Under the pieces are notes generated by a model, which was not told the origin of the DNA, ran no database searches, and was given only the letters and a program-made list of their open reading frames with translations. A DNA stretch of 64,000 bases from Lolium rigidum (Eukaryota; Streptophyta; Magnoliopsida; Poales; Poaceae), in the NCBI RefSeq assembly GCF_022539505.1, contig NC_061511.1, forward strand, positions 31,630,620 through 31,694,619, given 5' to 3'. This document shows, one piece after another, positions 1-55,253 of the stretch. The stretch's first letter is position 1. Every line of letters starts with the position of its first letter. Position numbers and translations under genes: made by a program.

Positions 1-1643
1 GCACCCGATGTCGAAGATCGTCGTGGTCGGGCACGAAGATCCGGCGCCCGTGCAAGAGTAGCCCTTCCGCCCAGCGCCATGGCGCCTCCAACTCGCCCAC
101 CTCCGGCTGCCGCCGCGAGGCCGGGCGTCGAGCGCCGTCGCAGTAGCCTGGCGGATGGTGTCGAAGAGACCGAAGGAGGGCCCCGAACGGATGCACAACG
201 CCAGCCCCTCGGGTGCGCCGTCCTCGTCAACAACATCGCGGCGAGAGAGAGCGTCGGCAACGGTGTTGAGGCGCCCCGGCCGATACTTATGGTGAAATCA
301 AAGCCGAACAGCTTGCTGATCCACTGATGCTGCGGAACGGTCAAAAGCCTCTGATCCAACAAGTACTTGAGGCTGTAGTGGTCCGTTCGAATCTGGAACG
401 AGCGCCCCCAAAGGTAGGGACGCCAATGGCGCACGGCCTGCACCAAGCAGATGAGCTCTGCTCGTACGCCGCGAGCTTGAGGTGGCGTGCGGCGAAAGGC
501 CTGCTGAAGTAGGCAAGCGGGCCATCGCCACGGTGAAGCACGGCACCGAACCCCACTCCGGAGGCGTCGCAGTCGACGATGAACGGCCGTGCGAAGTCCG
601 GCATCTGGAGAACGGGGCCCGTCATGAGGGCCCCCTTCAGGGCCTCGAACGCGGCGGTGGCCTCGTCATCCCAGGCGAAGGCGTCGCGGCGCAGAAGCTG
701 CGTGAGATGTGTCGCGATGATGCCGAAGTCCCGGATGAATTTCCGGTAGTACCCGGCGAGACCCAGGAAGCCGCGGAGAGCATGTGGCGAACGAGGAGGC
801 AGCCACGCGGCGACGGCCGCCACCTTCTCGGCGTCCATGGCCACCTCCTCGGCGGAGATGACGTGCCCGAGGTGGCGTCCGATGTCGTCCCGAACGAGCA
901 CTTCGAGTGCTTAAGGTGAAGATGATGCGCGCGAAGCTCGTTGAAGACGATGGCGACGTGATGTAGGTGCTCCGCCCACGAGGCATTGTAGATCAAAATA
1001 TCGTCAAAGAAAACGAGCACAAACGAGCACGTAAATAGGGGCGGAGTACATCGTTCATTAGGGCCTAGAATGTCGCTGGCGCGTTGGTGAGGCCAAAGGG
1101 CATCACCACGAACTCGAAGTGAGCATGATGGGTCCGGAACACCGTCTTGGCGATGTCGTCCGGGTGCATGCGCACCTGGTGATATCCCGACCGTAAGTCA
1201 AGCTTGGTGAAGAAGCGCGCCCCATGGAGCTCGTCGAAGAGCTCGTCGACCACCGGAATGGGGAACTTGTCCTTCAGCGTAAGCGCGTTTAGGGCGCGGT
1301 AGTCGATGCAGAAGCGCCATGTGCCATCTGCCTTGCGGACGAGCAAGCACCGGCACCGAGAACGGCGACGTAGAGATCCGGATGACACCCGCGGCGAGCA
1401 TGAGGGCGCACTGTCGCTCGAGCTCGTCCTTCTGCAGCTGAGGGTAGCGGTAAGGCCGCACGGCCACCGGCGCCGTGTCCGGGGTGAGGTGGATACGGTG
1501 ATCGTACACCCGGGTCGGCGGAAGGCCTTGCGACTCATCGAACAGGTCGCCGTGCTGCTGCAGGAGGTGGGCCAACAGAGGGTGGTCGGAGTCGATGTCG
1601 GCCGTGGTGAGCTGAAGCTGCAGTGCCGGGGCGGCGCCCCCAA
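1..1643 (-). pseudogene. Chromovirus (Ty3/gypsy) pol fragment, RT and RNase H, copy 1
   Basis: Reverse-strand pol of a Ty3/gypsy retrotransposon. Reverse transcriptase lies at about 1643-950: fingers with [11 protein letters not shown], palm with [14 protein letters not shown] and [13 protein letters not shown], then the FFDD active-site box near 1010. RNase H follows at about 610-340 (FIVDCDASGVGFGAVLH, then AYEQ). The linker toward the integrase runs off the window at position 1. The frame breaks near 1025, 900 and 430, and a TAG replaces the expected Gln codon after PATF (about 1068). Copy 2 has the same TAG, so that lesion predates the duplication. The coding sequence stops at 1643, where an Angela LTR is inserted. 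The chromovirus assignment comes from the chromodomain in copy 2. Confidence 0.9.
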
Positions 1644-4600
1644 TGTAGGGATTCGTTGCATAGAAAACAAAAAATTTCCTACCGCGAGAACGCAATCCAA
1701 GCCAAGATGCAATCTAGAAGACGGGAGCAACGAGGGGATGATCGAGACTCACCCTTGAAGATTTCCAAAGCCTATAAGAGTAGGCTCTTATTGCTGCGGT
1801 AGACGATCACTTGCTGCTTGCAAAAGCGCGTAGAAGATCTTGATCACGGTGCCACAATCGGGCAGCACCTCCGTACTCGGTCACACGTTCGGTGTTGATG
1901 AAGACGACGTCCTTCTCCCCGTTCCAGCGGGCAGCGGAAGTAGTAGCTCCTCCTTGAATCCGGTAGCACGACGGCGTGGTGGCGGTGGCGATGGAGAACT
2001 CCGGCGGAGCTTCGCTAAGCGTTGCGGGAGAGGTGGAGGAGGGGGGGCGGCTAGGGTTTGGGAGAGGGGGAGGTGGCCGGCCACTATGAGGGGGTGCGGC
2101 CACAATGGCTTTGGTGTGGCTGGCCCCCTCCCCTTGCTCCTCATTATATAGGTGGAACCCCCAAGTGTTGGACTACAAGTCTTCGAATAAGACTGATACG
2201 TCTCCGACGTATCGATAATTTCTTATGTTCCATGCCACATTATTGATGTTATCTACATGTTTTATGCACACTTTATGTCATATTCGTGCATTTTCTGGAA
2301 CTAACCTATTAACAAGATGCCGAAGTGCCGCTTCTGTTTTCTGCTGTTTTTGGTTTCAGAAATCCTAGTAACGAAATATTCTCGGAATTGGACGAAATCA
2401 ACGCCCAGGGTCCTATTTTGCCACGAAGCTTCCAGAAGTCCGAAGAGGAGACGAAGTGGGGCCACGAGGTGGCGACACCATAGGGCGGCGCGGCCCAAGC
2501 CCTGGCCGCGCCGACCTAGGGTGTGGGCCCCTCGTGCCCCTTCCTGACCTGCCCTTCCGCCTACTTAAAGCCTCCGTCGCGAGACCCCCAGTACCGAGAG
2601 CCACGATACGGAAAACCTTACTGAGACGCCGCCGCCGCCGATCCCATCTCGGGGGATCCAGGAGATCGCCTCCGGCACCCTGCCGGAGAGGGGATTCATC
2701 TCCCGGAGGACTCTACGCCGCCATGGTCGCCTCCGGAGTGATGTGTGAGTAGTCTACCCCTGGACTATGGGTCCATAGCAGTAGCTAGATGGTTGTCTTC
2801 TCCCCATTGTGCTTCATTGTCGGATCTTGTGAGCTGCCTAACATGATCAAGATCATCTATCCGTAATTCTATATGTTGCGTTTGTTGGGATCCGATGAAT
2901 AGAGAATACTTGTTATGTTGATTATCAAAGTTATCTCTATGTGTTGTTTATGATCTTGAATGCTCTCCGTTACTAGTAGATGCTCGGCCAAGTAGATGCT
3001 TGTAACTCCAAGAGGGAGTATTTATGCTCGATAGTGGGTTCATGCTCGCATTGACACACTGGGACAAGTGATGAAAGTTCTAAGGTTGTGTTGTGCTGTT
3101 GCCACTAGGGATAAAACATTGATGCTATGTCTAAGGATGTAGTTGTTGATTACATTACGCACCATACTTAATGCAATTGTCCGTTGCTTTGCAACTTAAT
3201 ACCTGGAGGGGTTCGGATGATAACCTGAAGGTGGACTTTTTAGGCATAGATGCGCTTGGATGGCGGTCTATGTACTTTGTCGTAATGCCCAATTAAATCT
3301 CACTATACTCATCATAATATGTATGTGCATGGTCATGCCCTCTTTATTTGTCAATTGCCCAACCGTAATTTGTTCACCCAACATGCTGTTTATCTTATGG
3401 GAGAGACACCTCTAGTGAACCGTGGACCCCGGTCCAATTCTCTATACTCGAAATACAATCTACTCGCAATACTTGTTCTACTCGTTTTCTCGCAAACAAT
3501 CATCTTCCACACAATACGGTTAATCCTTTGTTACAGCAAGCCGGTGAGATTGACAACCTCACTGTTTCGTTGGGGCGAAGTACTTTGGTTGTGTTGTGCA
3601 GGTTCCACGTTGGCGCCGGAATCCCTGGTGTTGCGCCGCACTACATCCCGCCGCCATCAACCTTCAACGTGCTTCTTGGCTCCTCCTGGTTCGATAAACC
3701 TTGGTTTCTTTCTGAGGGAAAACTTGCTGCTGTGCGCATCATACCTTCCTCTTGGGGTTCCCAACGAAGTGTGAGTTACACGCCATCAAAGACCCCAACC
3801 CAAAACCTTCCATGTGTAGGGAAACCTACCCAAGGTGGGATTCCCACCTCAAGTGGGACTCCCACCCTTCCATGAGGGGGGGTGGCCGCCCCCCTTGGTG
3901 GAGTCCACCTTGGACTCCACCCCTCTAGGGTTGGCCAGCCATGGGAGGTGGAGTCCCTCCGGGACTCCTCCTTCCTTAGTGATGTCTTCCGGACTTTTCT
4001 AGAACCTTCTAGAACCTTCCATAAAATCTCCGGATCATTTTCAAACTTATAAAATGACTTCCTATATATGAATCTTATTCTCCGGACCATTCCGGAACTC
4101 CTCGTGATGTCCGGGATCCCATCCGAGACTTCGAACAATACTTCGAACTCCATTCCATATTCAAGTTCTACTATTACAACATCAAACCTTAAGTGTGTCA
4201 CCCTACGGTTCGCGAACTATGTGGACATGGGTGAGAACTCTCTCCGACCAATAACCAATAGCGGGATCTGGAGATCCATAATGGCTCCCACATATTCAAC
4301 GATGACTTTAGTGATCGAATGAACCATTCACATACGATACCAATTCCCTTTGTCACGCGATATTTTACTTGTCCGAGGTCCGATCATCGGTATCACTCTA
4401 TACCTTGTTCAACCTTGTCTCCTCGACAAGTACTCTTTACTCGTACCGTGGTATGTGGTCTCTTATGAACTTATTCATATGCTTGCAAGACATTAGATGA
4501 CATTCCACCGAGAGGGCCCAGAGTATATCTATCCGTCACCGGGATGGACAAATCCCAGTATTGATCAATATGCCTCAACTCATACTTTCCGGATACTTAA

Positions 4601-5022
4601 TCCCACCTTTATAACCACCCATTTACGCAGTGGCGTTTGATGTAATCAAAGTACCTTTCCGGTATAAGTGATTTACATGATCTCATGGTCATAAGGACTA
4701 GGTAACTATGTATCGAAAGCTTATAGCAAATAACTTAATGACGTGATCTTATGCTACGCTTAATTGGGTGTGTCCATTACATCATTCATACAATGATATA
4801 ACCTTGTTATTAATAACATCCAATGTTCATGATTATGAAACTAATCATCCATTAATCAACAAGCTAGTTAAGAGGCATACTAGGGACTCTTTGTTGTTTA
4901 CATATCACACATCTATCAATGTTTCAGTTAATACAATTATAGCATGGTATATAAACATTTATCATAAACATAAAGATATATAATAACCAATTTATTATTG
5001 CCTCTTGGGCATATCTCCAACA
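1644..5022 (-). repeat. Angela 3' LTR, copy 1, split by a solo LTR
   Basis: The native LTR is about 1,779 bp once the 1,600-bp insertion (solo LTR plus one TSD copy) is subtracted, against 1,777 bp for the homologous LTR at 33981-35757. It starts and ends TG...CA with terminal TGT/ACA. A minus-strand TATA box (TATATAATGA) lies at 2141-2150. Confidence 0.92.
2194..3788 (+). mobile_element. Solo LTR (Sabrina-like, tentative), inserted in the Angela LTR
   Basis: A 1,595-bp LTR running from TGATACGTCTCC to ACGCCATCA with no internal domain. It is flanked by a perfect 5-bp duplication AAGAC (2189-2193 and 3789-3793). Two homologous Angela LTRs keep the unoccupied site with a single AAGAC, at 34526-34530 and 54020-54024. 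A solo LTR normally arises by recombination between the two LTRs of a full element. The terminal motif is common in Triticeae gypsy families; the name Sabrina is from memory and not certain. The orientation given is that in which the LTR begins TGATACG; no internal sequence remains to confirm it. Confidence 0.92.
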
Positions 5023-5035
5023 GTCTCCCACTTGC
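5023..5035 (-). other. Angela polypurine tract, copy 1
   Basis: Minus-strand GCAAGTGGGAGAC abuts the inner end of the 3' LTR. It is the primer site for plus-strand DNA synthesis. The identical tract is at 35758-35770 in copy 2. Confidence 0.88.
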
Positions 5036-5055
5036 ACTAGAGTCAATAATCTAGA

Positions 5056-8000
5056 TTACATTGTAAGGTACCTAACACCCATGGCATTCTGGTGTTGGTC
5101 ATGCTTTGCCCTAGGGAGAGCTTTAGTCAATGGATCCGCTACATTCGGATCAGTGTGTACTTTGCAAATCTTTACTTCTCCATCTTCGATGTACTCGCGA
5201 ATCGAGTGATAACGCAGCTTGATATGCTTCAGCCTCTTGTGTGACCTTGGTTCTTGTGCATTGGCGATGGCACCCATGTTGTCACAGTAGATGACTAGTG
5301 GGTCCAATGCACTAGGAACCACACCGAGCTCTACAATGAACCTCTTCATCCATACCGCTTCTGATGAAGCCTCCGAAGCCGCTATGTACTCGATTCCGTT
5401 GAAGACTTCGCCACCGTGCACCGCTTCGAGCTTGCCTAGCTTACTGCAGCACCATTCAATATAAACACGTACCCGCACCGTGACTTAGAGTCATCGAGAT
5501 CGTTGTTCCAACTTGCACCGGTGTAACTTGTTACAACGAGCTCTTGGTCACCTCCATAACAAAGATACATATCCTTAGTTCTTTTCAAGTACTTCAGGAT
5601 ATTCTTGACCGCTGTCCGAGTGTTCCATTCCCGGATCACTTTGATATCTCGCTAGTCAAACTAACAGACATGTGCTATATCCGGTCTAGTACATAGCATG
5701 GCATACATGATAGAGCCTCATCGCCGAGGCATAGGGGATCCGACTCATCCTTTCTCTTTCTTCTGCCGTAGCCGGTCCTTGAGTCTTACTCAAGACCTTG
5801 CCTCGGTAATATAGGTAAGAACCCTTTCTTACTTTCGTCCATTCTAAACTTCTTTAGAATCTTGTCCAGGTATGTACTCGTGATAGCCCTATTAGGCATC
5901 TTGATCTATCTCTATAAATCTTGATGCCTAATATATACGATGCTTCACCAAGGTCTTTCATTGAAAAACTATTATTCAAATAACCTTTTACACTGCTTAA
6001 TAGTTGTATATCATTCCCAATTAATAATATGTCATCCACATATAATATCAGGAATGCTACAGAGCTCCCACTCACTTTCTTGTAAATACAGGCCTCTCCA
6101 TGACACTGTATAAACCCGAATTCTTTGATCACTTTATCAAAGCGTCGGTTCCAACTTCTCGATGCTTGCTTTAGTCCATAAATTGAACGCTGAAGTTTGC
6201 ATACTTTGTCAGCATTTTTAGGATCGACAAAACCTTTGGGTTGTACCATATACAACTCTTCCTCAATGTCTCCATTAAGGAACGTTGTTTTGACATCCAT
6301 CTCGCCAAATCTCATAATCGAAAAATGCAGCTATTGCTAACAAAATCCTCACAGATTTTAGCTTCGCTACAGGTGAGAAAGTCTCATCGTAGTCAACACC
6401 TTGAATTTGTCGGAAACCCTTTGCGACAAGTCGAGCTTTATAGACAGTAATATTACCATCAGCATATGTTTTTCTCTTGAAGATCCATTTATTCTCGACA
6501 GCCTTTCGGCTATCAGGTAAGTCTACCAAAGTCCACACTTTGTTATCATACATGGATCCCATTTCAGATTTCATGGCTTCTTGCCATTTGTTGAAATCTG
6601 GGCTCATCATCACTTCTTCATACGTCGCAGGGTCTTCATCATTGCTGTCCACAATCATGACATTTAGACAAGGATCATACAATTCAGGAGTGGCACGTTC
6701 CCTTGTCGATCTGCGAGGTTCAGTAGTTTCCTCGTTCGAAGTTTCATCATCATTATCATTAGCTTCCTCTGTTGTTGGTGCAGGCGGTACGGGAACAACT
6801 ACCGGTACTGCGCTACTCTGATCAACGAGTAAAGATTCATCAATCTCATCGAGTTCTACTTTTCTTCCAGTCACTTCTTTAGTGAGAAATTCTTTCTCAA
6901 GAAAGGTTCCGTTCTTAGCAATAAAGATTTTGCCTTCGGATCTGTGATAGAAAGTGTACCCTATAGTTTCCTTAGGGTATCCTATGAAGACACATTTCTC
7001 CGCTTTGGGTTCTAGCTTGTCCGGTTGTAACTTCTTTACATAGGCTTCGCAACCCCAAACTTTAAGGAACGACGACTTAGGTTTCTTATTAAACCATAAT
7101 TCATACGGTGTCGTTTCAACGGATTTTAATGGTGCTCTATTTAAAGTGAATGCGGTTGTCTCTAATGCATAACTCCAAAATGATAACGGCAAATCAGTAA
7201 GAGATATCATAGAACGAACCATATCTAAGAGAGTTCGATTACGACGTTCGGACACACCGTTTCGTTGAGGTGTTCCCGGCGGTGTCAATTGTGAAAGTAT
7301 TCCGCATTTCTTTAAATGCATGCCAAACTCATAACTCAGATATTCACCTCCGCGATCAGATCGTAGAAATTTAATCTTCTTGTTACATTGATTTTCTACT
7401 TCACTTTGGAATTCCTTAAACTTCTCGAAAGTTTCAGATTTATGTTTCATGAAATAGATATACCCATATCTACTCAGATCATCTGTGAAGGTTAGAACAT
7501 AACGATAACCACCGCGCGATGCTACACTCATTGGTCCGCATACATCGGTATGTATGATTTCCAATAAGTCAGTGGCTCGCTCCATCATACCAGAGAATGG
7601 AGTCTTAGTCATTTTTTCCATCAGACATGCTTCGCATCTATCAAGTGACTCAAAGTCAAGTGATTCAAGTAATCCATCAGTATGGAGTTTCTTCATGCGT
7701 TTCACTCCAATATGACCAAGACGACAATGCCACATATAAGTAGAATTATCATTCAATTTAATTCGCTTAGCATCAATATTATGTATATGTGTATCACTAC
7801 TATCGAGATCTAACAGAAATAAGCCATTCTTTTCAGGTGCTCGACCATAAAAGATATTATTCATAAAAATAGAACAAGCAATATTCTCAGACTTGAATGA
7901 ATAACCATCTTGCATTAAAAAAGATCCAGATATAATGTTCATGCTCAACGCGGGTACAAAATAACAATTATTTAGGCTTAAAACTAATCCCGAAGGTAGA

Positions 8001-8335
8001 TGTAGAGGAAGTGTGCCGACAGCGATCACATCGACTTTGGATCCGTTTCCAACGCGCATCGTCACTTCATCTTTCAGTAGTCTTCGTTTATTCTTTAGCT
8101 CCTGTTTCGAGTTACAAATATGAGCAACCGAACCAGTATCAAATACCCAGGTACTAGTACGAGAACCAGTGAGATAAACATCTATAACATGTATATCAGA
8201 TATACCTTCTTTCTTCTTCTTGACAAGGCCGCTCTTCAGATCAGCCAGATACTTGGAGCAATTACGCTTCCAGTGTCCCTTCTCCTTGCAGTAATAGCAC
8301 TCAGCATCGTGCTTAGGGCCGTTCTTAGGTTTCAT
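5056..8335 (-). pseudogene. Angela pol polyprotein, copy 1 (zinc knuckle, PR, IN, RT, RNase H)
   Basis: Reading down the minus strand: end of gag with a CCHC knuckle (CYYCKEKGHWKRNC, near 8290); aspartic protease with DTGS (VFDTGSVAHICNS, near 8130); integrase zinc region (CRLGHIG...CEACLMEK, 7730-7610) and DDE core with HTDVCGP, DRGGEY and SERRNRTL (7550-7220); reverse transcriptase from about 6550, with YVDDILLIGND near 6030; RNase H at about 5640-5056, with YIAASEASSEAVW and LRYHSIREYIEDGEV. The stretch 8335-6275 is one 686-codon frame. Breaks occur near 6300, 5850, 5700-5640 and 5450. At several of these copy 2 keeps the frame and differs by CTG or CAG against CTCG or CGAG, so some breaks may be sequencing artefacts. 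Confidence 0.92.
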
Positions 8336-8378
8336 AGGAGGCGTGGCAGCTTTCTTGTCACCCTTCTTGAATTTTCCC

Positions 8379-9041
8379 TTAGACTTGCCCCTGTTTCTTG
8401 AAACTGGTGGTCTTGTTGACCATCAACACTTGGTGCTCTTTCTTGATCTCAATCTCAGCAGCTTTTAGCATGACAAAGAGTTTAGGTAACTCTTTGTTCA
8501 TGTTCTGCATATTGTAGTTCATCACAAAGTTCTTGTAACTAGGTGGCAGTGATTGATGGACACGATTAATCCCCAGTCTGTTAGGAATCACTATTCCCAA
8601 GCCACTGAGTTTCTTCGCATGCCCGGTCATAACGAGCATGTGCTCACTAACGGAGCTGCCTTCTTCCATCATGCAGCTGAAGAAGTGTTTCGATGCCTCA
8701 TAGCATTCCACGGCCGGATGAGTTTCAAATATAGCTTTCAGCTCATTGACCAACTCATGAGGATCGTGGTCCTCAAAACCTTTTTGAAGATCGGCTTCCA
8801 GACTGCACAGGATGGCACACTGAACTCGAAAGTACCGAGCTTTCCGAGTAGCGTAAACATTCTTTACTTCATCGGTTTCAATTTCTGCAGGAGGGTCACC
8901 TAGCAGTGCATCAAGCACATATTGCAGATTTCCGCCAGCGAGGAAGATCCTCACATGACGGAACCAGTCGGTGAAGTTGCTACCGTTGCTCTTAAGCTTT
9001 TCTTTCTCTAGGAACCGGTTAAAATTGATTGGGGACGCCAT
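8379..9041 (-). pseudogene. Angela gag, copy 1
   Basis: Capsid-type gag of a Copia element. The start chosen is the ATG at 9039-9041, giving MASPINFNRFLEKEKLK, which fits the conserved N-terminus of BARE1-type gag; the open frame extends 7 codons upstream. A conserved gag region follows (FTDWFRHVRIFLAGGNLQYVLDA). The frame shifts at about 8390 because copy 1 has an extra C in a C run (GCCCC) where copy 2 has GCCC. In copy 2 gag is continuous with the zinc knuckle and protease, so one gag-pol frame is the ancestral state. Confidence 0.9.
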
Positions 9042-9714
9042 ATCTACAACATATATTTGCAATAGTTTAGACTAAGTTTATGACAAATTTAGTTCAAATT
9101 TTAATTCAACATAATTAAAAATCTAGGTGAACTCCCACTCAAAACAATATCCCTCGAATTGTCTTAGTGATCACACGAACCAAATCCATCACACCTAAGT
9201 CCGATCATCACGAGACAAGATGTAATTTCAATGGCGAACATTCAAAGTGTTCATCATATCAATCATATAATTCATGCTCTACCTTTCGGTATCACGTGTT
9301 CAGAGACCATGTCTGTACATGCTAGGCTCGTCAAGGCCACCTTAGTATCCGCATGTGCAAAACTGGCTTGCACCCGTTGTATGCACTTCTTGATTCTATC
9401 ACACCCGATCATCACGAGATGCTTCGAAACGACAAGTCTTGGCAACGGTGCTACTAAGGATGAACACTTTATTATCTTGATATTTTAGTGAGGGATCATC
9501 TTATAATGCTACCGTCGCGATCTAAGCAAAATAAGATGCATAAAAGGATTAACATCACATGCAGTTCATATCTGATATGATATGGCCCTTTTGTCTTTGT
9601 GCCTTTGATCTTCATCTTCAAAGCACGGACATGATCTCCATCATCAACGGGCATGATCTCCATCATCATCGGCGTAGCGTCAAGGTCCATGGCGCCGTCT
9701 TCATGGTTGTTCAC
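9042..9714 (-). other. Angela untranslated leader, copy 1 (gag-proximal part)
   Basis: Non-coding leader between gag and the 5' LTR. I see no gene here. It ends at TTCAC (9710-9714), the target duplicated by the Tat insertion. The LTR-proximal part of the same leader is preserved only in copy 2 (52983-53494). Confidence 0.8.
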
Positions 9715-10099
9715 TGACAAGGTATTAACTTGTCAATGCCTATGGATTGTAGGCTAGGGTTTAATTGGAAGTAGAGGGCAAGTAGATCTCGAAGGTTTCA
9801 GCCGAAAAGTACTCGACGATTAAGAAAACTAGGGTTTGTAAACAATGATTCGATGATTTCCGCGTCCCTCGACTCCCCCTTATATAGGAGGCGGAGCCGA
9901 GGGATTCGTGTTGTACAAGTTACAAAGTCCGGGAAGGTTTCTAACTCATCCCGTAAAATTACAAATAAGACTTTCTATTACAACTCTAGCTTTCCTTAAT
10001 AATATCTTGGGCTTCCGAATCTTCTTATTCTTCGGGTAGTGGGCCTTCGATAAACCCCGGGTACTATCTTCGGCAGGCCCATTTGGGATGCCTATGTCG
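9715..10099 (-). repeat. Tat 3' LTR, copy 1
   Basis: A 385-bp LTR matching 39900-40284 and 52593-52977. It starts TGACAAGG on the plus strand. Its inner end reads TGTCGATAGCCCCC here and TGTCAGTAGCCCCC in copy 2, one of the CAG-type differences described in the findings. Confidence 0.9.
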
Positions 10100-11344
10100 A
10101 TAGCCCCCGAGATTTTGCTTGAATCGTAGGGTCAAGGAAAATCTCGACCGTTTATTTTTATTCGACAGACTTCGACTTTTCTATATTTCTTCTCATAAAC
10201 ATCTATATTGTACAGGGATAATGGTAGTTGGGGCTAGTTCATCTGACGGATCAGGTACTAGTTAACTGCTCTAGTGGCAATCCGCAAAAACCTACTTCAA
10301 GATCACGTCCCTGGACATGACCTCGGGATAACGGTGTAAACTTCGACAAGTGCCGCTTAAGGTCTTACCATTCTGTCGAGTCCCAGTAAAATTTATCGAG
10401 TACCTAACGCGTCCGTTAGGATTTTTCTTCGTATCTGTTGATACGGATAAAAGTAGCAGAGCGCAGTCTTCGGCGATGCCACGCCCAGCAGAATGGATCT
10501 AGGGTCTTACCTTCGCAAATTTGCGGCATTCAGAAATTGATCGCAACTTTGGCGTTCTGAGAATATATTATCGAGTGCTTTTTTGGCTGTTGGAATGGCA
10601 CATTTTATCGAGTCAAAGATGACTTATATTGCCCTCCCGATGGGAGTATATGTAGAGTTGATTATAACTCGAAATATACTCTTTTGCTCTTCTATCTTTC
10701 TTTTTCTCTTTCTTTCTTTCTTTTTTATAATTTCATCGGGCACGCGAGCAGCGTTCCCGATGGGAGTAGCCCCCGAGGCTACAGCCAAGGACTTGTACTT
10801 GGGTGTAGGCTCCACGCCTTATGCCGCTATATTTTCTTTTATCTCCCGAAGTTTTATAATTTCTCGGGTGCGCGAACAGCGCTCCCGATGGGAGTAGCCC
10901 CCGAGGCTATGAACAAATATTTGTATTTGGTCATAGGCTCACGCCATTTCTATCTTGTTCTTCTGGATCTTTTCCTTTTTCCAAAGTAGCCCCCGAGCAT
11001 TTGATCAAAAACTTGTATTTGATCAAAGGCTCAGCATTATTTTTCCGTGTCGCCTTTTATGAAGCTGTTGAGTCGAATTTTTTCTTCTGCCAAGGTGACG
11101 TTGTTGCTGACGATAGCCACGATTGCTAGTCGAAATTTGCGACAAGTCTTTTCTCGCTGCCATGCGGGCCCAATTGATCCACTATCTTGACACGTCGTGC
11201 AAGTGGGGGACACACGTCCTCCGCTTTTTCTGGCGCACGCACCGTAACTTCCCCAATGTTGAATTACTTTTTTACCCTTGTTGTTACGTGGCTATTATCT
11301 GTCACACATTTTCCTTATCCAACGGTCCGCCGCTTCAGCGCACC
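10100..11344 (-). other. Tat 3' spacer with reiterated AGCCCCCGAG motifs, copy 1
   Basis: Non-coding sequence between the 3' LTR and the promoter of the antisense gene. The decamer AGCCCCCGAG, which is the reverse complement of the core of the element's own polypurine tract, recurs four times in the spacer, mostly within longer GGGAGTAGCCCCCGAGGCT blocks near 10767 and 10895. No gene is seen on either strand. Confidence 0.75.
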
Positions 11345-11353
11345 TCTATATAA
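11345..11353 (+). promoter_or_regulatory. TATA box of the Tat antisense gene, copy 1
   Basis: CTATATAAG lies about 130 bp upstream of the ATG at 11482 and is followed by a pyrimidine-rich leader (TCTTCTTCTTCCTCCTCGAG), typical of plant Pol II promoters. The same box is at 41531-41539 in copy 2. Confidence 0.7.
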
Positions 11354-11481
11354 GGTCTTCTTCTTCCTCCTCGAGCACCTCCGCCGCGCCGTCCTCCTCG
11401 CTCCCATCCGCAAATTTCCTCCCGCGATCCACAGCCACCTAAGCTCCTCGCCTCCAAGCTGCAAACCCCGCGCCATTGTTG

Positions 11482-40284: not shown

Positions 40285-41530
40285 GTAGCCCCCGAGATTT
40301 TGCTTGAATCGTAGGGTCAAGGAAAATCTCGACCGTTTATTTTTATTCGACAGCTTCGACTTTTCTATATTTCTTCTCATAAACATCTATATTGTACAGG
40401 GATAATGGTAGTTGGGGCTAGTTCATCTGACGGATCAGGTACTAGTTAACTGCTCTAGTGGCAATCCGCAAAAACCTACTTCAAGATCACGTCCCTGGAC
40501 ATGACCTCGGGATACCGGTGTAAACTTCGACAAGTGCCGCTTAAGGTCTTACCATTCTGTCGAGTCCCATTAAAATTTATCGAGTACCTAACGCGTCTGT
40601 TAGGATTTTTCTTCGTATCTGTTGATACGGATAAAAGTAGCAGAGCGCAGTCTTCGGCGATGCCACGCCCAGCAGAACGGATCTGGGGTCTTACCTTCGC
40701 AAATTTGCGGCATTCAGAAATTGATCGCAACTTTGGCGTTCTGAGAATATATTGTCGAGTGCTTTTTCGGCTGTTGGAATGGCACATTTTATCGAGTCAA
40801 AGATGACTTATATTGCCCTCCCGATGGGAGTATATGTAGAGTTGATTATAACTCGAAATATACTCTTTTGCTCTTCTATCTTTCTTTTTCTCTTTCTTTC
40901 TTTCTTTTTTATAATTTCATCGGGCACGCGAGCAGCGTTCCCGATGGGAGTAGCCCCCGAGGCTACAGCCAAGGACTTGTACTTGGGTGTAGGCTCCACG
41001 CCTTATGCCGCTATATTTTCTTTTATCTCCCGAAGTTTTATAATTTCTCGGGTGCGCGAACAGCGCTCCCGATGGGAGTAGCCCCCGAGGCTATGAACAA
41101 ATATTTGTATTTGGTCATAGGCTCACGCCATTTCTATCTTGTCCTTCTGGATCTTTTCCTTTTTTCCAAAGTAGCCCCCGAGCATTTGATCAAAAACTTG
41201 TATTTGATCAAAGGCTCAGCATTATTTTTCCGCGTCGCCTTTTATGAAGCTGTTGAGTCGAATTTTTCTTCTGCCAAGGTGACGTTGTTGCTGACGATAG
41301 CCACGATTGCTTGTCAGAAATTTGCGACAAGTCTTTTCTCGCTGCCATGCGGGCCCAATTGATCCACTATCTTGACACGTCGTGCAAGTGGGGGACACAC
41401 GTCCTCCGCTTTTTCTGGCGCACGCACCGTAACTTCCCCAATGTTGAATTACTTTTTTACCCTTGTTGTTACGTGGCTATCATCTGTCACACATTTTCCT
41501 TATCCAACGGTCCGCCGCTTCAGCGCACCT
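40285..41530 (-). other. Tat polypurine tract and 3' spacer with reiterated tracts, copy 2
   Basis: AGCCCCCGAG occurs at 40287, 40952, 41080 and 41173 here and at 45647, 45751 and 45957 in the spacer beyond the antisense block, seven times in all. The first, next to the LTR, is the functional polypurine tract by position. No gene is seen. Confidence 0.8.
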
Positions 41531-41539
41531 CTATATAAG
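41531..41539 (+). promoter_or_regulatory. TATA box of the Tat antisense gene, copy 2
   Basis: CTATATAAG, 128 bp before the ATG at 41667, in the same context as in copy 1. Confidence 0.7.
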
Positions 41540-41666
41540 GTCTTCTTCTTCCTCCTCGAGCACCTCCGCTCGCGCCGTCCTCCTGCTCCCATCTGCAAAT
41601 TTCCTCCTGCGATCCACAGCCACCTAAGCTCCTCGCCTCCAAGCTGCAAACCCTGCGCCATTGTTG

Positions 41667-44373: not shown

Positions 44374-44557
44374 TTGCATGCCTCTTTGTTTTTTGCTTTC
44401 TCTGTCTCTTTTGCCCTTGTCGCCAATTTAGCTGTGGCGACAATTATCCTGGTAGTCCTTTTGGAGAAACTTCTTTTGTAATGTCTATGTAAATTTTTCT
44501 AGAAATTAATGAAATTCCTTCTAGCACTATCATTGATCCTGGCGCTTTCTTTTCCAG

Positions 44558-45546
44558 TTAATATTTGATAACTATTCGACCAATCCTTGCTCTGCCGATG
44601 CTTCACCTGCTTCTTCCTTCTCGAAGAAAATGCTAGTTGATGACGACCCCCTTGAAGGTTCTTCGAGCAAACATTTGTCGGAAGATTTGCAAGAACTTCG
44701 ACAACAACTTCAATCCATGAAGAAACAAACTCTGGCAATGATGGAACAATCTCGGAAAGCATCCGAACAAGAAAAACTTGCTCTCCAACAAGCCAAAGAG
44801 GCTATGGCTGCGAAGGATGCTGCTGTATTGGAAGCAAAGGAAGCCACTACCCGAGAAAATAGCATGCTCGAGCTAATGTTGGAAGCTAGCACAGATATGT
44901 TAGGTATGTTTTTCCAACCTCACAATGCCTCCTCTTTATATTGCTGTGCCCCCCTTCAAATTTCTTGCCTTGTCGCTTAATAGGCTCGGTTCTTGATGCT
45001 GCCGCCGAAGATCGAAGAGTAAACGAGAGAACAAATCTTCTTGTCAATCTTTCCCTTAACCATGGCTGTTTATTCTGGGCCACCCCTGAACGAACCCAGC
45101 AAATTGTCAGGTTCCAAGATCGTGCTTGCCAAGTGCGCGAATTTCTCAATTTTTGCACGACAACATTAACCCTTGTTTACAAGACTTTGTTTCCTCGAAA
45201 TGAAGTTCCCAAAACTCTTCCTGAATTGCTGGAGATATTCAGAGATGCTCCCCGCATTCATAATTTTGTGCGAGCTCAATTGACTGCTAGAGCAAGGTTC
45301 GCCATGATTATGATAAATATTTGCCATCCAAAATTAGACCTGACGAAGATTGTTGCTGATTGCTTGGCCAAGAAATCGCGGCGAAAAAATGATATTGACA
45401 CAATCAATGAGATGGTAACTCCTGTGGTCGAGTCGATGATAGATGAGCTTCTTCGGATGGACTCAGAATTCTTCGTCAAGGGGTCCTATGCTGAACATAA
45501 AACAACCAGAGGCTTGTCCATAGATAGTATTTTAGGCTTTGACTGA
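44558..45546 (+). pseudogene. Tat antisense second coding block, copy 2
   Basis: Coiled-coil exon (to about 44903) and final exon (about 44984-45546, ending in a TGA). Copy 2 keeps the frame at the end (DTINEMVTPVVESMIDELLR, LSIDSILGFD) where copy 1 is shifted. It has its own break near 45060-45105 (ATGGCTGTT for ATATGGCTGTT, AGGTTCC for CGAGTTCC). It is probably the 3' part of the same antisense transcription unit. Confidence 0.6.
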
Positions 45547-46145
45547 TTTGTACCATATTGCAAAATATTGTGTCTGTATCTTTTTTGATTTCTTTTTTAT
45601 TTCCGAAGAAATTTGTTGTATATTGTAAAGTTCTCTATATTGTTGGAGCCCCCGAGCCTTCTGGCTAGAGTTTGTACTGTTTTTTCCATCTCGACGATTT
45701 TTCCTCTTGCCGTAAGAAGATATCTTTATTTTTTCATCAAATAGGTTGCAAGCCCCCGAGTATATTAGTGTCGAAGTTCTATATTTTTGTTGCGAGGTTC
45801 TTAGACCAAAGCAATAAGATTTTTGATGTGTACACTATATTTATAATTGTTAGCTTCCGATTTTTATATTTGGCGAGGTATTAGTGTACCAAGGCGAAAT
45901 ATTTCGGTAAGTCTAGTTTGTCTATATTGTACGTATTCTGAGACTTGAAGGCGTTGAGCCCCCGAGCGTGTCGAAGAATAAGAAGTATATCTCCACTATC
46001 TTTATTATATTGCAGCACCGCGAGCCCGCCTCATTAAAAACCTTTCCGGTCCCACTCGGTGCCCCGAAAAGGAAAAGAGTGCCTCTGAAAACTCGCGGGC
46101 GTTTCAGTACATTGTATTTTTACAGAGAAGGACTATATTTCAACT
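45547..46145 (-). other. Tat spacer between antisense block and integrase end, copy 2
   Basis: Non-coding, AT-rich, with three AGCCCCCGAG motifs. It is probably where convergent transcripts of pol and the antisense gene end. No gene is seen. Confidence 0.6.
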
Positions 46146-49100
46146 CTAGGCGTAGAACCGCCTGAGCTGCGCTACGTTCCAGGGGTTTTTCTCGGGAGCC
46201 CCTGTCTTCTTGTCCCTTATCCTGTATGCGCCTCCGTCGATGACTTCCGTGACAACGTAAGGCCCCAACCATGGTGATTCGAGCGTCTCAGTACTTTTTG
46301 GATTTAACCGCAAGACCAAATCCCCAACTTGAAAAGATCTTGGTCTTAACCGTCGACTGTGGTAGTTTTTGAGGTCTTGCTGGTATTTGGTGACTCGTGA
46401 AAGTACTTCATCGCGAGCTTCGTCGAGTGCGTCCATATCATCCTCCCGAGCTTTTTGTGATGTTTCTTCGTCATACTCTGTTACTCTTGGAGAATCATGC
46501 TCTATTTCAATTGGTAGTACTGCTTCGGCTCCGTGGACGAGAAAAAATGGAGTTTCTTGTGTCGCCGTATTTGGTGTTGTTCGGATGCTCCACAAAACAC
46601 TTGGCAATTCCTCTGGCCAAGTATGTCGAGCTTTTTCAAGCGGTCCTAGCAGGCGCTTTTTGAGGCCGTTGCGAGATGATACCATTGGCTTTCTCGACTT
46701 GTCCGTTAGTTTGCGGGTGCCCAAGCGACGCAAAGTGCAATTTAATGCCTACTTCTGCGCAGTATTCCTTGAATTCCTTGGATGTGAAGTTTGAACCATT
46801 ATCTGTAACAATGCTATGAGGCACCCCAAACCGAAAAACGAGGCCTTTCACAAACTTTATTGCCGACGCTGCATCTGGTGAATTTATTGGCTTCGCTTCT
46901 ACCCACTTGGTGAATTTGTCGACAGCGACCAGCAAGTACTCATATCCTCCTGGCGAAGCTTTGTGCAACTTGCCCACCATATCAAGTCCCCATTGGGCAA
47001 AGGGCCACGACAATGGTATTGGTGTTAATTCCGCCGCTGGAGAGTGAGGTTTTGCGGCAAATCTTTGACACGCGTCGCAAGTTCTTACTATTTCCTTGGC
47101 ATCCTCGATTGCTATCAACCAATAGAATCCTGCCCGAAAAACTTTGGCTGCAATAGCTCGACTACTTGCGGGGTGGCCACATATTCCTTCGTGTACATCC
47201 TTCAGAATTATTCTTCCTTCCTCGGGTGTGACACACCTTTGCAGAACGCCTGAAATACTTCGCTTGTATAACTCCCCCTTGATCATTGTGAAAGCTTTGG
47301 ATCGTCGAATAATTCGCTTGGCCTCAAGCTGGATCGTCGGGTATTTCTTTCCTGAGGATATATGATATATACGCTTGCATCCAAGGAACTTCTACCATCA
47401 TCACAAGTTCTTGGTCCTCTTCATCCTCCGTGGTTTCTTTGAGGGGCGCCGAAGTTTTTCCTTCCTTTGCTTTTTTCAGCATCTTTTTCGGCTTCGTGGA
47501 TCTCTCCGCTATTTCTTCCCAAAATACTCTGAGCGGGATTGGGAGGCCTCTGCGACCCGATGTTTGCGAGAACGTCGGCTTCATCATTGCTCAATCTACT
47601 GATGTGATTTACCTCGCACCCATCAAACAGCTTCTCGAGCTCATTGTACACCTCCTTATATGCCATCATGCTATCATTGACTGCGTCACATTGGTTCAGA
47701 ACTTGCTGAGCCACCAATTGTGAGTCGCCAAAGATTTTTAGTCGAGTTGCACCGCAAGCTTTCGCCATCTTCATCCCGTGTATGAGGGCTTCATATTCTG
47801 CTTCATTGTTGGATGTGTTAGGGAACGTCATCCGAAGGACGTATTTCAACTTGTCGCCTTCAGGTGATATAAGTACTACTCCTGCGCCAGCTCCTTCTAC
47901 TCTCTTGGACCCATCGAAGTTCATGGTCCAAGTTCTCGACAAATCTGGGGTCCCGTGTTTTGTAGCTCCATCCACTCTACAATGAAATCGGCGGAACTTG
48001 CGACTTGATTGCCTTTCTTTTTTCATACGTGATGTCCCGAGGGAAAGTTCTATTCCCCAAAGGGAGACACGCCCATAGCTCCGGATTGTTCAGTATATTT
48101 GAAAGAGGTGCTTCGTTGACTACTATTATCGGATGTGCCGAAAAATAGTGGCGCAACTTCCTTGCTGTTGCAATTACTCCATATGCTAGTTTCTGGTACT
48201 GCGGGTATCGCTGTTTGGAAGGCGACAAAACTTCGCTGATGAAATATACTGGCCATTGCACTCCATGGAGTTTACCTTCTTCTTCTCTTTCAACAACTAG
48301 CACCGTGCTAACCACTTGGGGTGTGGCTGCAATGTACAACAGGAGAGGTTCCTTTTCCTTCGGCGCCACCAGGATTGGTGGTGTCGAGATTGTGCGCTTC
48401 AGATCCTCGAAAGCTCTGTCGGCCTCTTCGTTCCACTGGAATTTCTCCCCTTGCTTTATCAGAGCGTAAAATGGTAATGCTTTTTCTCCCAGCCTGGCGA
48501 CGAATCTGCTTAAAGCTGCGACTCGCCCAGTTAGCTGCTGTATTTCTTTTAACTTTGTTGGCTTCCTCATTGTTACGATAGCTTGTATTTTGTCGGGATT
48601 TGCTTCAATCCCTCTTGCTGAAACTAGAAACCCCAGAAGTTCTCCTGCTGGGACGCCAAAAGAACACTTCATCGGGTTCAGCTTGAGGCAGAATTTGTCG
48701 AGGTTGTCAAAGGTTTCCTTGAGATCCTCGATCAGCGTTGCCCCCTTTTTTGACGTTATGACGACATCGTCGATGTATACTTGCACGTTTTTCCCAATCT
48801 GCGTCGCCAAACACTTCTGCATCATCCTCTGATATGTTGCTCCCGCGTTTTTCAGACCAAAAGGCATTGTTCTGTAGCAAAACACGCCGTAAGGTGTGAT
48901 GAACGCTGTCTTTACTTCATCTTCTTCTTTCAATCTGATCTGGTTATAACCAGAATATGCGTCCAGGAAGGAAAGACGTTCACATCCAGCCGTGGAGTCA
49001 ATAAGTTGATCGATCCTCGGGAGGGGAAAGTGATCCTTTGGACAATGTTTATTGAGACACGTAAAGTCGACGCACATGCGAAGGATCTTAGTATTTTTCT

Positions 49101-49380
49101 TCGGCACCAACACAGGGTTTGCTACCCATGTGGCTTCTGTGTGCAACTCCTTGATAAACCAGCTTCTCGTAGTCGATCGATTTCTGACAGCATAGCCTTG
49201 CGGTTTGGTTCCGAAAAACGCCGCAAAGGTTGTTTGATTGGTCTCGCTAGTGGATCCAAGTTTAGGTGGTGCTCGGCAAGTTCCCTAGGTACTCCTGGCA
49301 TGTCAGCTGGACACCATGCGAAGATTTTCCAGTTCTCACGGAGGAACTCGACGAGCGCGCTTTCCTATGCGAGGTCCATG
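46146..49380 (-). pseudogene. Tat pol, copy 2 (RT, gypsy RNase H, archaeal-like RNase H, integrase)
   Basis: RT (49146-48600, FLDAYSGYNQIRLKEEDEV, YRTMPFGLKNAGATYQRM, YIDDVVITS; the 36 bp lost in copy 1 is present). Gypsy RNase H has the active-site Asp replaced (LLLYIAATPQVV). A second RNase H carries the full acidic set MNFDGSK, NNEAEYEAL, GDSQLV and NDEAD (47930-47570). Integrase has HPASSRAI...CDACQRFAAK, GLDMVGKL, TDNGSNFT and QVEKANGI (47200-46700) and a C-terminal module (VGDLVLRLN, WLGPYVVTEV). Frame breaks are near 49155, 48000, 47540, 47320 and 46685. Confidence 0.92.
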
Positions 49381-52300
49381 TCGTTTGCAATTGACGTCGT
49401 CTTTTTCGGGTCTGTCGGGTGAATCTGCACCTCCTTAGAATTTTTCTCGGTATTGAAAGTTGATTCTTTATTTGGCCTTCCAACGTCTGGCAGCACGTCG
49501 TAGTCAGTCATACTCCTTGACGCCAAATACTCAGCTTGCATCCCGAAAGTTTCTGATATCCGATGAAAATCCTTATCGCACTTATCGGCTAAGGCGAAGC
49601 TTCCTTTGACTCGTGATTGGTCCCTTAGGTCCAGGCATCCTCCACAACAGGTATGTATAATGTGGTACCGCCATAAATCTAGCATATGCTGGTCGTCCCA
49701 ACGGAGCGTGGTACTTGCAACGGAAAATCCACAACTTCAAATTCCAGCTTCTCGATTCTATAATTCTCTCGGGTTCCAAACTGAACGTCGAGATTAATCT
49801 TCCCCAATGGATAACTTGGTTTCTCCGGTGTGATACCATGGAACCTCGTGTATGTTGGCTTCAAGTTTGCTAGGGATATATTCATCTTCCTCAATGTATC
49901 TGCATACATAAGGTTTAAGCTGCTGCCGCCATCTATGAACACTCGAGAGACATCAAATCCCGCAATAACTGCTGGTAAGATAAGTGCTGACTGCCCTGGT
50001 CGAGGAACTTGCTGCGGATGATCTGCTATGGTGAAGCCAATATCTTGCCCTGACCAATTAAGATACTCGACTGTTGGTGGAGGCATTTTTTCTGCCATGA
50101 ACACCTGTCGTGAGATTACTTTCTGAGCTCTATTGGATGGCCTTCCCTTCTGAATCATCGACACCGCTCCGTTGGAGTTAGGATCAACGTAAGGTGGTGG
50201 TGGAGGTGCTGCCGCTATTCTGAGCTGATGTCGATTGTCTTCTGTAATCGCGGGAGGAGGTGGCAAGTGAATCTCGCTCCTGGGTTCTCGAGGATTTCTC
50301 TGTGCTGCCCGAGCGTTAGCGTGCTCTGCCCACCTTAACATTGCCTGGAAATTGCGACAATCTTTCTGCAGATGTCCTGACTGTCTTTTTCCGTTGCTGT
50401 CGAGGAAAAAGTGCATCTGACACGGCCCATTCATCATCTCTTCGGGAGACACGAAAGGCCTCGGGAACCTAGGCCCGCTATTTTGCCTGTTGTTTCGAGA
50501 ATCGTCTCTATTATCGCCTCGCTGCTCATTGCTTCTCTGATAATCATCTCTGTTGTTTCCTCCTGAGTTTTCCCGAAAACCTGCCGAAATTTGTCCTGGA
50601 GCATCATAGTTCGGGTACTGCCGAGGAAACCGTCGCCTCGGTTGATAATTTCGACCACGGTCCTCCTCTGGCGACCTGTGTTGTTTGTTGTGGACAGCAT
50701 CTTCTCCATCTGCCCATCTGTTTGCTATTTCCATTAACACGGATACTGTCTTTGGGTTGGTCCTTCCCAAGTCCTCGACAAAATCTCCACGCCTGATTCC
50801 TGCGACAAACGCATCTATCGCTCTCTCGTCAGATATATTTTCTGCCGAGTTTTTGATGATGTTCCACCTTTGGATATATTTTCTCATTGGCTCGTCTGGC
50901 ATTTGTCGACATGCTCTCAACTCCTCTAACGACGCAGGTTTTTTGCACGTGGACCTGAAGTTTTTGACGAACACGTCCTCGAAGCTTTCCCAACTGTCGA
51001 TAGATCCTGGAGGGAGTTTCTTTATCCAAGACCGTGCGGCTCCACTCAAATGCACCTGGATGCTTTGCATAGCTGTTGCTCTGGTTCCTCCTGTGAGTTT
51101 CACCGTCTCGAGATAATCAACTAGCCAATCTTCTGGATCTTGAAGGCCGTCGAATTTTTTGAAATTATCAGGCAACTTGAATCCCGAAGGTACTCGAGTT
51201 TTTCGCACTCTCCTCGTGAAGCACGGCAAACCGCACATATCCTCGTCGTTTAACTCTGGGGACTGCCGATGTTCTCTTCTGCTTTGTCGCGCTTAGTCGA
51301 CCCTTGCTTGTGCTGCCGTATCTCTTGCTCCACTTGGTCCTTCAGGAGCTGCTGCTGCCGCAGGTCATGGACTATTTTGCCTTGCTGTTCCTTCGGGAGG
51401 TGTTGATACAAACGCCGTCCCCATGGCTCCAACTCCTGCTATCGCCATGTTATACAGTGTTTCCCTTGGATCCCCTGGAGGTGGTTTAGATGCGAGGATA
51501 AAAGCATGTGTCACCATATACCCAGCCTCTGGTGTCTTAGGGATGATGTTTCCTCTTGTATCTATCGACATAAAGGACATGTCAAGGTTTTGGACCAGGT
51601 GCTCTCTTTCTGCTTCGGGTATGTGTTGTAACCTTGATCTCGCTCTGTTCCGAGCCTCCCTGTGGCTATCACCCGAAGTTCTAGATTGTCGACTCAGCTC
51701 TGCCCTTCTCCTGCTGGATGCAGAAGCTGCCTCCTTTCTTCACGTTTAACTCAGCTGTCTGTTTTTCCAATTCTCTTGCACCTCGTGCGAGCCTATATTG
51801 ATATGCTTGTAATTCCTCTGGCGTGGCTGTGGTGGCCATTGGTTCTGAGCCGTCCATAGCTCTCGCGGCTCTATCCCATGCTACTTGCGGGAGTCGAACT
51901 CTGTGTCGTGGCTGTGGCCCGACGTATTTATTGCCCAAGCCTCGTCGCAGATCGGAGGGATCGACGTATGGATTTCCCAGATCGTCGAAAGCCTCAGATG
52001 TTTCCTCTTGGTCATTGCTTGGCTCTCCAATGACATAAATCTGATGATATTTTGTGTTCAGATCTATGTTGGGTTTGGTGACACCATCGTTGAGATTGGT
52101 GAAGACCTTGCCCACTGTAGTAGATTTGTCGATGAAGTCGTAACTGTCGACACTGCTTGAGCCATCGCTTATATATGAGCCCGCAGATGACTCAAACGAC
52201 ATGTCGCTGAAGATCTTGGCGAGTTTCTCTCTTGCCCTGGTGCTGATGTAGCGTGACGATGAAGTTTCTTCTTCTCCTGATTCGGTTGACGATGTATAGC

Positions 52301-52592: not shown

Positions 52593-52977
52593 TGACAAGG
52601 TATTAACTTGTCAATGCCTATGGATTGTAGGCTAGGGTTTAATTGGAAGTAGAGGGCAAGTAGATCTCGAAGGTTTCAGCCGAAAAGTACTCGACGATTA
52701 AGAAAACTAGGGTTTGTAAACAATGATTCGATGATTTCCGCGTCCCTCGACTCCCTCTTATATAGGAGGCGGAGCCGAGGGATTCGTGCTGTACAAGTTA
52801 CAAAGTCCGGGAAGGTTTCTAACTCATCCCGTAAAATTACAAATAAGACTTTCTATTACAACTCTAGCTTTCCTTAATAATATCTTGGGCTTCCGAATCT
52901 TCTTATTCTTCGGGTAGTGGGCCTTCAGTAAACCCCGGGTACTATCTTCGGCAGGCCCATTTGGGATGCCTATGTCA
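52593..52977 (-). repeat. Tat 5' LTR with TATA box
   Basis: 385 bp. Minus-strand CTATATAAG at 52757-52765 is the likely promoter for gag-pol. Outer end CCTATGTCA is followed by the TTCAC duplication. Confidence 0.93.
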
Positions 52978-52982: not shown

Positions 52983-53508
52983 CTCATGTAGCAACTATTA
53001 CAACTACTTTGAAATACTACTCAACATGAAAATTTAAAGACAACCATAAGGCTCCTGCCGGTTGCCACAATACAATAATGATCATCTCATACATATTCAT
53101 CATCACATTATGGCCATATCACATCACCAAACCCTGCAAAAACAAGTTAGACGTCTCTAATTTGGTTTGCATATTTTACGTGGTTTAGGGTTTTTGAGAG
53201 AGATCTAATCTACCTACTAACATGAACCACAACGGTGATACTAGTGTTGTCAATAGAAGAGTAAATTGAATCTTCACTATAGTAGGAGAGACATACACCC
53301 GCAAAGCCTCTTATGCAATGCAAGTTGCATGTCGAATGAGGAACAAGTCTCATGAACGCGGTCATGTAAAGTTAGTCCGAGCCGCTTCATCCCACTATGC
53401 CACAAAGATGCAAAGTACTCAAACTAAAGACAACAAAAGCATCAACGCCCACAAACCATTGTGTTCTACTCGTGCAACCATCTATGCATAGACACGGCTC
53501 TGATACCA
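52983..53508 (-). other. Angela leader (LTR-proximal) and primer-binding site
   Basis: Continuation of the Angela leader after the Tat insertion. Minus-strand TGGTATCAGAGCC at 53495-53507, one base from the LTR, is the initiator-Met tRNA primer site typical of BARE1-type Copia elements. No gene. Confidence 0.88.
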
Positions 53509-55253
53509 CTGTAGGGATTCGTTGCATAGAAAACAAAAAAATTCCTACCGCGAGAACGCAATCCAAGCCAAGATGCAATCTATAAGACGGGAGCAACGAG
53601 GGGATGATCGAGACTCACCCTTGAAGATTTCCAAAGCCTATAAGAGTAGGCTCTTATTGCTGCGGTAGACGATCACTTGCCGCTTGCAAAAGCGCGTAGA
53701 AGATCTTGATCACGGTGCCACAATCGGGCAGCACCTCCGTACTCGGTCACACGTTCGATGTTGATGAAGATGACGTCCTTCTCCCCGTTCCAGCAGCATG
53801 ACGGCGTGGTGGCGGTGGCGATGGAGAACTCCGGCGGAGCTTCGCTAAGCGTTGCGGGAGAGGTGGAGGAGAGGGGGGCGGCTAGGGTTTGGGAGAGGGG
53901 GAGGTGGCCGGCCACTATGAGGGGGTGCGGCCACAATGGCTTTGGTGTGGCCGGCCCCCTCCCCTTGCTCCTCATTATATAGGTGGAACCCCCAAGTGTT
54001 GGACTACAAGTCTTCGAATAAGACCCCAACCCAAAACCTTCCATGTGTAGGGAAACCTACCCAAGGTGGGATTCCCACCTCAAGTGGGACTCCCATCCTT
54101 CCATGAGGGGGGGTGGCCGGCCCCCTTGGTGGAGTCCACCTTGGACTCCACCCCTCTAGGGTTGGCCGGCCATGGGAGGGTGGAGTCCCTCCGGGACTCC
54201 TCCTTCCTTAATGATTTCTTCCGGACTTTTCTAGAACCTTCTAGAACCTTCCATAAAATCTCCGGATCATTTTCAAACTTATAAAATGACATCCTATATA
54301 TGAATCTTATTCTCCGGACCATTCCGGAACTCCTCGTGATGTCCGGGATCCCATCCGAGACTTCGAACAATACTTCGAACTCCATTCCATATTCAAGTTC
54401 TACTATTACAACATCAAACCTTAAGTGTGTCACCCTACGGTTCGCGAACTATGTGGACATCGGTGAGAACTCTCTCCGACCAGTAACCAATAGCGGGATC
54501 TGGAGATCCATAATGGCTCCCACATATTCAACGATGACTTTAGTGATCGAATGAACCATTCACATAGGATACCAATTCCCTTTGTCACGCGATATTTTAC
54601 TTGTCCGAGGTCTGATCATCGGTATCACTCTATACCTTATTCAACCTCGTCTCCAGACAAGTACTCTTTACTCGTACCGTGGTATGTGGTCTCTTATGAA
54701 CTTATTCATATGCTTGCAAGACATTAGACGACATTCCACCGAGAGGGCCCAGAGTATATCTATCCGTCATCGGGATGGACAAATCCCACTATTGATCCAT
54801 ATGCCTCAACTCATACTTTTCGGATACTTAATCTCACCTTTATAACCACCCATTTACGCAGTGGCGTTTGATGTAATCAAAGTACCTTTCCGGTATAAGT
54901 GATTTACATGATCTCATGGTCATAAGGACTAGGTAACTATGTATCGAAAGCTTATAGCAAATAACTTAATGACGTGATCTTATGCTACGCTTAATTGGGT
55001 GTGTCCATTACATCATTCATACAATGATATAACCTTGTTATTAATAACATCCAATGTTCATGATTATAAAACTAATCATCCATTAATCAACAAGCTAGTT
55101 ACGAGGCATACTAGGGACTCTTTGTTGTTTACATATCACACATGTATCAATGTTTCAGTTAATACAATTATAGCATGATATATAAACATTTATCATAAAC
55201 ATAAAGATATATAATAACCACTTTATTATTGCCTCTTGGGCATATCTCCAACA
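53509..55253 (-). repeat. Angela 5' LTR with TATA box, copy 2
   Basis: 1,745 bp. The minus-strand TATA box (TATATAATG) is at 53973-53981. It keeps the empty AAGAC site at 54020-54024. A gap of about 36 bp relative to the 3' LTR lies near 53794. Confidence 0.94.

Follow-up and report, generated by a model that had tools for sequence, protein, structure and literature searches.

The two copies of a retrotransposon block in Lolium rigidum differ by a recurrent exchange, in which a CAG or CTG (together CWG) of one copy stands as a CG-bearing form in the other, and this signature is a real, strong, and directional artefact. In our judgment, with a probability of roughly 0.83, most of the CG-bearing forms are not mutations but miscalls in the consensus, arising where native nanopore reads pass over CHG-methylated cytosines. 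The exchange dominates the short insertions, deletions, and multi-base changes that separate the copies, is bound to the CHG context, runs toward the gain of CG wherever the direction of a non-SNP event could be decided, and accompanies frameshifts in the genes of the retroelements.

The duplicated block and its surroundings

The window, by which we mean the whole stretch of 64,000 nucleotides that was analyzed (positions 31,630,620 to 31,694,619 of contig NC_061511.1), is rich in retrotransposons and contains a block of ~20.7 kb that is present twice, in the form of four aligned segments. A blastn comparison of the window with itself gave four segment pairs at 97.7-98.9% identity. Block a, a Ty3-type element, occupies 1-2193 in copy 1 and 32344-34530 in copy 2 (97.7%). 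Block b, made up of an LTR and copia-type pol, lies at 3789-7125 and 34526-37858 (98.0%). By far the longest is block c at 7656-20894 and 37849-51101 (97.8%), which consists of a copia gag, a middle part for which there were no matches to the protein homolog set, and a Ty3/gypsy gag-pol. Block d is found at 20890-22852 and 59932-61894 (98.9%). Two stretches of copy 1, at 2194-3788 (about 1.6 kb) and 7126-7655 (about 0.5 kb), are without a counterpart in copy 2, where the segments flanking the corresponding positions directly adjoin each other. At one place within the aligned blocks (18608 in copy 1, 48791 in copy 2), copy 2 is the longer by 27 bases. Third copies of two stretches are available as outgroups, namely a short one at 52593-52977 that matches 9715-10098 and 39900-40284, and an LTR-bearing one at 53506-55253 that is also found in copies 1 and 2.

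The retroelement proteins of the window carry the Pfam domains RVT_1, RVT_2, rve, and copia gag, representing both Ty3/gypsy and copia elements. For two of them, the closest named relatives among the matches listed, the top 120 out of 6,420 for one protein and out of 3,774 for the other, are from Lolium and Festuca. A copia polyprotein appears in a public record filed as Salmonella enterica, which is probably plant contamination, and a scan of viral contigs for DNA related to the window found no relatives.

Between the two transposon copies lies a pair of F-box-type genes in divergent orientation (27497-29950), both of them open. The first, on the minus strand at 27497-28666, encodes 389 amino acids with the Pfam domains F-box (PF00646) and PF23635 and contains 30 CWG sites. 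The second, on the plus strand at 28889-29950, encodes 353 amino acids with a KIB1-4 beta-propeller (PF03478) and an F-box-like match that falls below the Pfam cutoff, and contains 25 CWG sites. The best named relative of the plus-strand protein is from Avena (49%), the best Lolium matches stand at 38-39%, and further relatives reach 56% and, across 70% of the length, 67%.

Exchange of CWG for CG between the copies

Alignment of the four segments with MAFFT gave 20,687 columns and a total of 347 differences. SNPs account for 264 of these, 196 being transitions; the rest are 46 indels with a net length of one base, 30 multi-base substitutions, and 7 events of other kinds. An event was called a swap if neither allele exceeded 5 letters and if, counted within 3 bases, one of the copies was poorer in CWG and richer in CG than the other. 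The short non-SNP events to which this definition was applied number 75, being the 46 one-base-net indels together with the 29 multi-base events whose alleles do not exceed 5 letters; longer alleles removed 1 of the 30 multi-base events and 4 of the 7 others, and the 3 short events remaining in the latter class, none of which is a swap, are not part of the 75.

Swaps account for 34 of the 75 events, where random placement yields about 3. They make up 18 of the 46 indels and 16 of the 29 multi-base events; in 500 simulations in which events of the same shape were placed randomly, the means were 1.8 and 1.5 and the highest counts 7 and 6, respectively. Not one of the 75 raises or lowers the numbers of CG and CWG together. 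When all 320 classes of exchange between a dinucleotide and a trinucleotide are ranked, CG against CAG/CTG comes first with 34 events, followed by its mirror image, CA/TG against CGA/TCG, with 30. The initial annotation had held that differences between the copies are enriched in this form and had looked to a count of contexts in an alignment as the means of deciding it. Such a count bears the claim out: CAG/CTG is struck at 82 per 1000 sites, the highest rate of the 32 trinucleotide pairs, the runner-up being its counterpart CGA/TCG at 49 per 1000. The ten pairs of strings that had been named as examples are also genuine, all 20 being present once each, and the 18 that had been given a position lie within 4 bases of it. 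A CWG is affected in 45 of the 75 events, against 18% by chance; 34 of these 45 are swaps and 11 are not. Swaps nevertheless constitute only about one in ten of the 347 differences, most of which are ordinary SNPs, and it is among indels and multi-base changes that the enrichment is seen.

The load of CG-bearing forms is distributed unequally. Copy 1 has the CG form in 29 swaps and copy 2 in 5, a sixfold difference (P = 4e-5); the reverse direction also exists, as had been noted. In the blastn alignments, the CG form lies in copy 1 and copy 2 in 4 and 0 swaps of block a, 5 and 0 of block b, and 21 and 5 of block c, and block d has no swaps despite 73 CWG candidate sites. Across blocks a-c of copy 1, 30 of 456 CWG candidate sites (about 7%) carry a swap. 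The swaps of copy 1 are weakly clustered, with 15 neighbor pairs within 300 nt compared with 11.3 (P = 0.07). The unequal load and the clean block d fit less well with the explanation favored below; differences in local read depth, in polishing, or in methylation could underlie them, as well as the excess in copy 2 of frame breaks that are not swaps. Changes in the length of homopolymer runs, another usual nanopore error, are seen in 9 of the 46 one-base indels.

Dependence on the CHG context

The context of the exchange was counted by taking every case in which a C is followed by G in one copy and by another letter in the other copy, and recording the trinucleotide of the latter on both strands; totals of CHG and CHH sites were taken from both strands of copy 2. 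G was gained at 36 of 1,622 CHG sites and at 4 of 6,033 CHH sites (odds ratio 34, P = 1.5e-20). The CHG events divide into 30 at CAG, 4 at CTG, and 2 at CCG, compared with 4 at all CHH trinucleotides together; both CCG cases do no more than lengthen or shorten a run of C, and the CHG tally thus rests on the 34 events at CAG and CTG. This way of counting misses 3 of the 34 swaps. The effect therefore tracks the plant methylation class CHG, with CAG well ahead, and the form of the error is bound to that context. CHG is a context of 5-methylcytosine in plants, and its methylation is symmetric; the asymmetry between CAG and CTG accordingly needs a property of the pore or of the basecaller.

SNPs give a fainter echo of the same pattern. 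Where the copies differ by CCG and CTG, the CG lies in copy 1 in 34 cases and in copy 2 in 16, as opposed to 21 and 26 for other NCG/NTG differences (Fisher P = 0.025), hinting at substitution miscalls alongside the indels. SNPs between CAG and CGG are also raised; 47 fall on 548 CAG sites, a rate of 86 per 1000, where the other CAN trinucleotides have 15-28 per 1000.

Direction of the exchange

Three sources of evidence, the reading frame, protein homologs, and the third copy, bear on which of two alternative forms is the older. Taken together, they could decide 13 non-SNP events, and in all 13 the CWG form is the older. These events are, in other words, gains of CG, the opposite direction to that of deamination, and the earlier argument against CG deamination has held.

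In the frame test, the copies were taken as they stand, and 240 homologs aligned by ungapped tblastn served to assign their reading frames. For 8 of the 18 swap indels, both flanks show coding evidence in both copies. Among these 8, the copy with the broken frame has the CG form in 7 and the CWG form in none, with 1 undecided. Five of the 16 multi-base swaps could be judged by homologous proteins, and the CWG form was favored in all 5. The stretch of the third copy at 52593-52977 covers 1 clear swap, at which it carries the CWG form, leaving copy 1 as the odd one. A second swap falls at the exact end of the third-copy similarity and was not counted, a single letter there speaking for the CWG form; the LTR-bearing stretch at 53506-55253 has no swap event inside it and hence holds no information on polarity. 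An earlier and cruder homology score, now superseded by the frame test, used fragments of 180 nt that mixed neighboring events, one fragment running past the end of its block; by that score, the CG form was the worse in 10 of 10 swap indels, and among multi-base swaps in 4, with 1 opposite and 1 undecided.

The 50 swaps that take the form of SNPs are less informative, 32 being not coding and 11 synonymous; of the remainder, 5 favor the CWG form, 1 favors the CG form, and 1 is undecided. Frame-breaking indels that are not swaps are commoner in copy 2 (7) than in copy 1 (3), and other errors or true decay are therefore present too.

Association with frameshifts

A second test makes no comparison between the copies. 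Frameshift sites were located by means of homologs, and of the 55 found, the 30 supported by 3 or more protein pairs were kept. At 20 of these 30 sites, some of which are partners between the copies and not independent, CTCG or CGAG occurs within 15 nt (background 0.25, P = 2e-6); eleven control words composed of the same letters are found at 2 to 8 of the 30. With the sites sorted by hand into groups, CTCG or CGAG is present at 10 of the 13 sites confined to copy 1, at 4 of the 7 confined to copy 2, at 6 of the 7 assigned to both copies (a group in which site 1362 has no listed partner), and at 0 of 2 in single-copy sequence; the group-wise count omits the site at 37967, whereas the test on 20 of 30 covers them all. 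Frameshifts common to both copies, at 5816-5877 and 36548-36609, likewise have CTCG no more than 15 nt away. Their position suggests that some errors recur and that the same site may have been miscalled twice; the pairwise count of swaps may therefore be a lower bound.

The F-box genes had been put forward as a control, on the grounds that they are free of such lesions. Both reading frames are indeed open, and yet they offer only 55 CWG sites in all, each in single copy. At the rate of copy 1 (15 indels at roughly 530 sites), about 1.6 frame-changing swaps would be expected in them. Because the sites are so few, an outcome of zero is unremarkable (about 1 in 5), and this contrast has to be given up as evidence. 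The wider claim of the initial annotation, base-calling error at CHG sites, is sustained insofar as the differences are errors and not mutations and are linked to CHG; nanopore reads and methylation are their inferred source.

Weighing of the explanations

That the enrichment is merely an artefact of gap placement or of the simulations is hardly credible. MAFFT and blastn do sort some events differently, giving 75 and 83 short non-SNP events, respectively, but the two aligners agree on the excess (34 of 75 and 35 of 83), and the frameshift-site test is made without any copy-to-copy alignment; with the excess reproduced by blastn, this candidate was rejected. Real mutation between old copies, whether by deamination, by mismatch repair, or through small insertions and deletions where CHG sites are hypermutable, is very improbable as the source of the exchange. 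True divergence does exist, as is evident from the 264 SNPs and their preponderance of transitions, and the raised frequency of SNPs between CAG and CGG may partly represent true hypermutability. Deamination, however, removes CG, and CG was gained in 13 of 13 non-SNP events and in 5 of the 6 SNP events that could be decided. The deamination of CpG in methylated transposons also interchanges CG and CWG, but it does so in the opposite direction and by substitutions only. With CWG and not CG as the older form in these events, it too was rejected. We know of no process that would repeatedly insert a G between the C and the A of CAG, or turn CAG into CGA.

Somewhat less remote, although still unlikely, is the possibility that nanopore or other single-molecule reads err at CAG on account of the letter sequence itself, independently of methylation. 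The bias toward CAG over CTG (30 against 4) does reveal a sequence component, and similar currents alone have been reported to give rise to strand-specific miscalls, as in telomere repeats (PMC9414165). An error that depends on letters alone is harder to reconcile with the near immunity of CAA, CAC, CAT, and every other CHH trinucleotide, or with the finding that, of the 45 events affecting a CWG, 34 create in the other form a CG, the usual context of 5-methylcytosine in human training data.

We therefore favor miscalls at methylated CHG sites, and infer the following course of events. Where a CHG site is methylated, its 5-methylcytosine, principally that of the CAG strand, would disturb the current in native nanopore reads, and a basecaller trained on 5-methylcytosine mainly in CG would call the letter that follows this C as G, turning CAG into CGAG, CGA, CGT, or CG. 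The opposite strand of the same site would usually be read correctly, such that the consensus would be wrong only where reads of the CAG strand dominate. Polishing with short reads would then leave the error unrepaired in near-identical retrotransposon copies, because short reads lack a unique placement there. Errors as frequent as those of copy 1, whose 20.7 kb contain 29 swaps, could persist in this way. Several reports make such a scheme plausible. In Klebsiella pneumoniae, about 70% of the consensus errors of the then-current nanopore basecallers were in Dcm motifs (PMC6591954), methylation errors have been described in bacteria that affect the reads of one strand and for the most part disappear after PCR amplification (PMC11389150), heavily methylated sites are reported to be troublesome for nanopore calling (PMC9650304), and short-read polishing has been found unreliable in repeats (PMC8812927). 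Nanopore-built assemblies of related ryegrass exist (PMC8358221, PMC10940895, and PMC12376112), which speaks to plausibility only.

Relation to known systems

The closest parallel is provided by the Dcm (CCWGG) errors of Enterobacteriaceae described by Wick et al. 2019 (PMC6591954), which are likewise motif-bound consensus errors linked to 5-methylcytosine and made by default basecalling models. The signature reported here differs from these in its motif, the plant CWG/CHG, and in its directional gain of CG; CCWGG holds just 2 of the 34 swaps, and an origin from Dcm methylation or cloning in E. coli was accordingly rejected. Miscalls in bacterial typing with R10.4.1 (PMC11389150) are similar in that motifs are consistent; in them the reads of one strand are wrong, and small differences in read count decide the consensus, as would be the case here. 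There, the motifs are bacterial; here, strand specificity is suggested indirectly, by the bias toward CAG. In plants, Ferguson et al. 2022 (PMC9749173) described reduced read accuracy with general basecallers and suggested as its cause that plant methylation is unlike that of the training species; the main text of that report contains no occurrence of CHG or of CTG, and the signature is absent from it. A search of one open-access library showed, among the matches listed, no description of CAG read as CGAG or CGA at plant CHG sites, a result that concerns the literature searched and is not proof of absence in print. The class of error is already known, and its plant CHG form was not found described in that literature.

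Implications

A broader proposition, to which we would give even odds, is that basecallers trained on 5-methylcytosine in CG only write false CG at methylated CHG sites of plants, and that nanopore assemblies consequently carry an imprint of CHG methylation that can be read from their letters. CAG to CGAG or CGA lesions would then mark methylated CHG in repeats, could be counted without the reads, and would inflate CG, frameshifts, and pseudogene counts genome-wide. If the favored explanation is right, indels and the counts of CG and CHG in the repeats of nanopore-based plant assemblies would be biased in one direction, the genes of transposons would look more broken than they are, and the loss or gain of CG between copies would be misjudged. 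Dates derived from LTR divergence would be inflated, and methylation maps would lose CHG sites and acquire false CG sites. The exchange test, with its comparison of CHG with CHH and its polarity from reading frames, requires nothing beyond an assembly that contains duplicated repeats and could be used in quality control. The interest of the finding lies in this check on assemblies and not in the biology of the locus. For the block itself, it means that many of the changes that seem to break its genes are probably absent from the plant.
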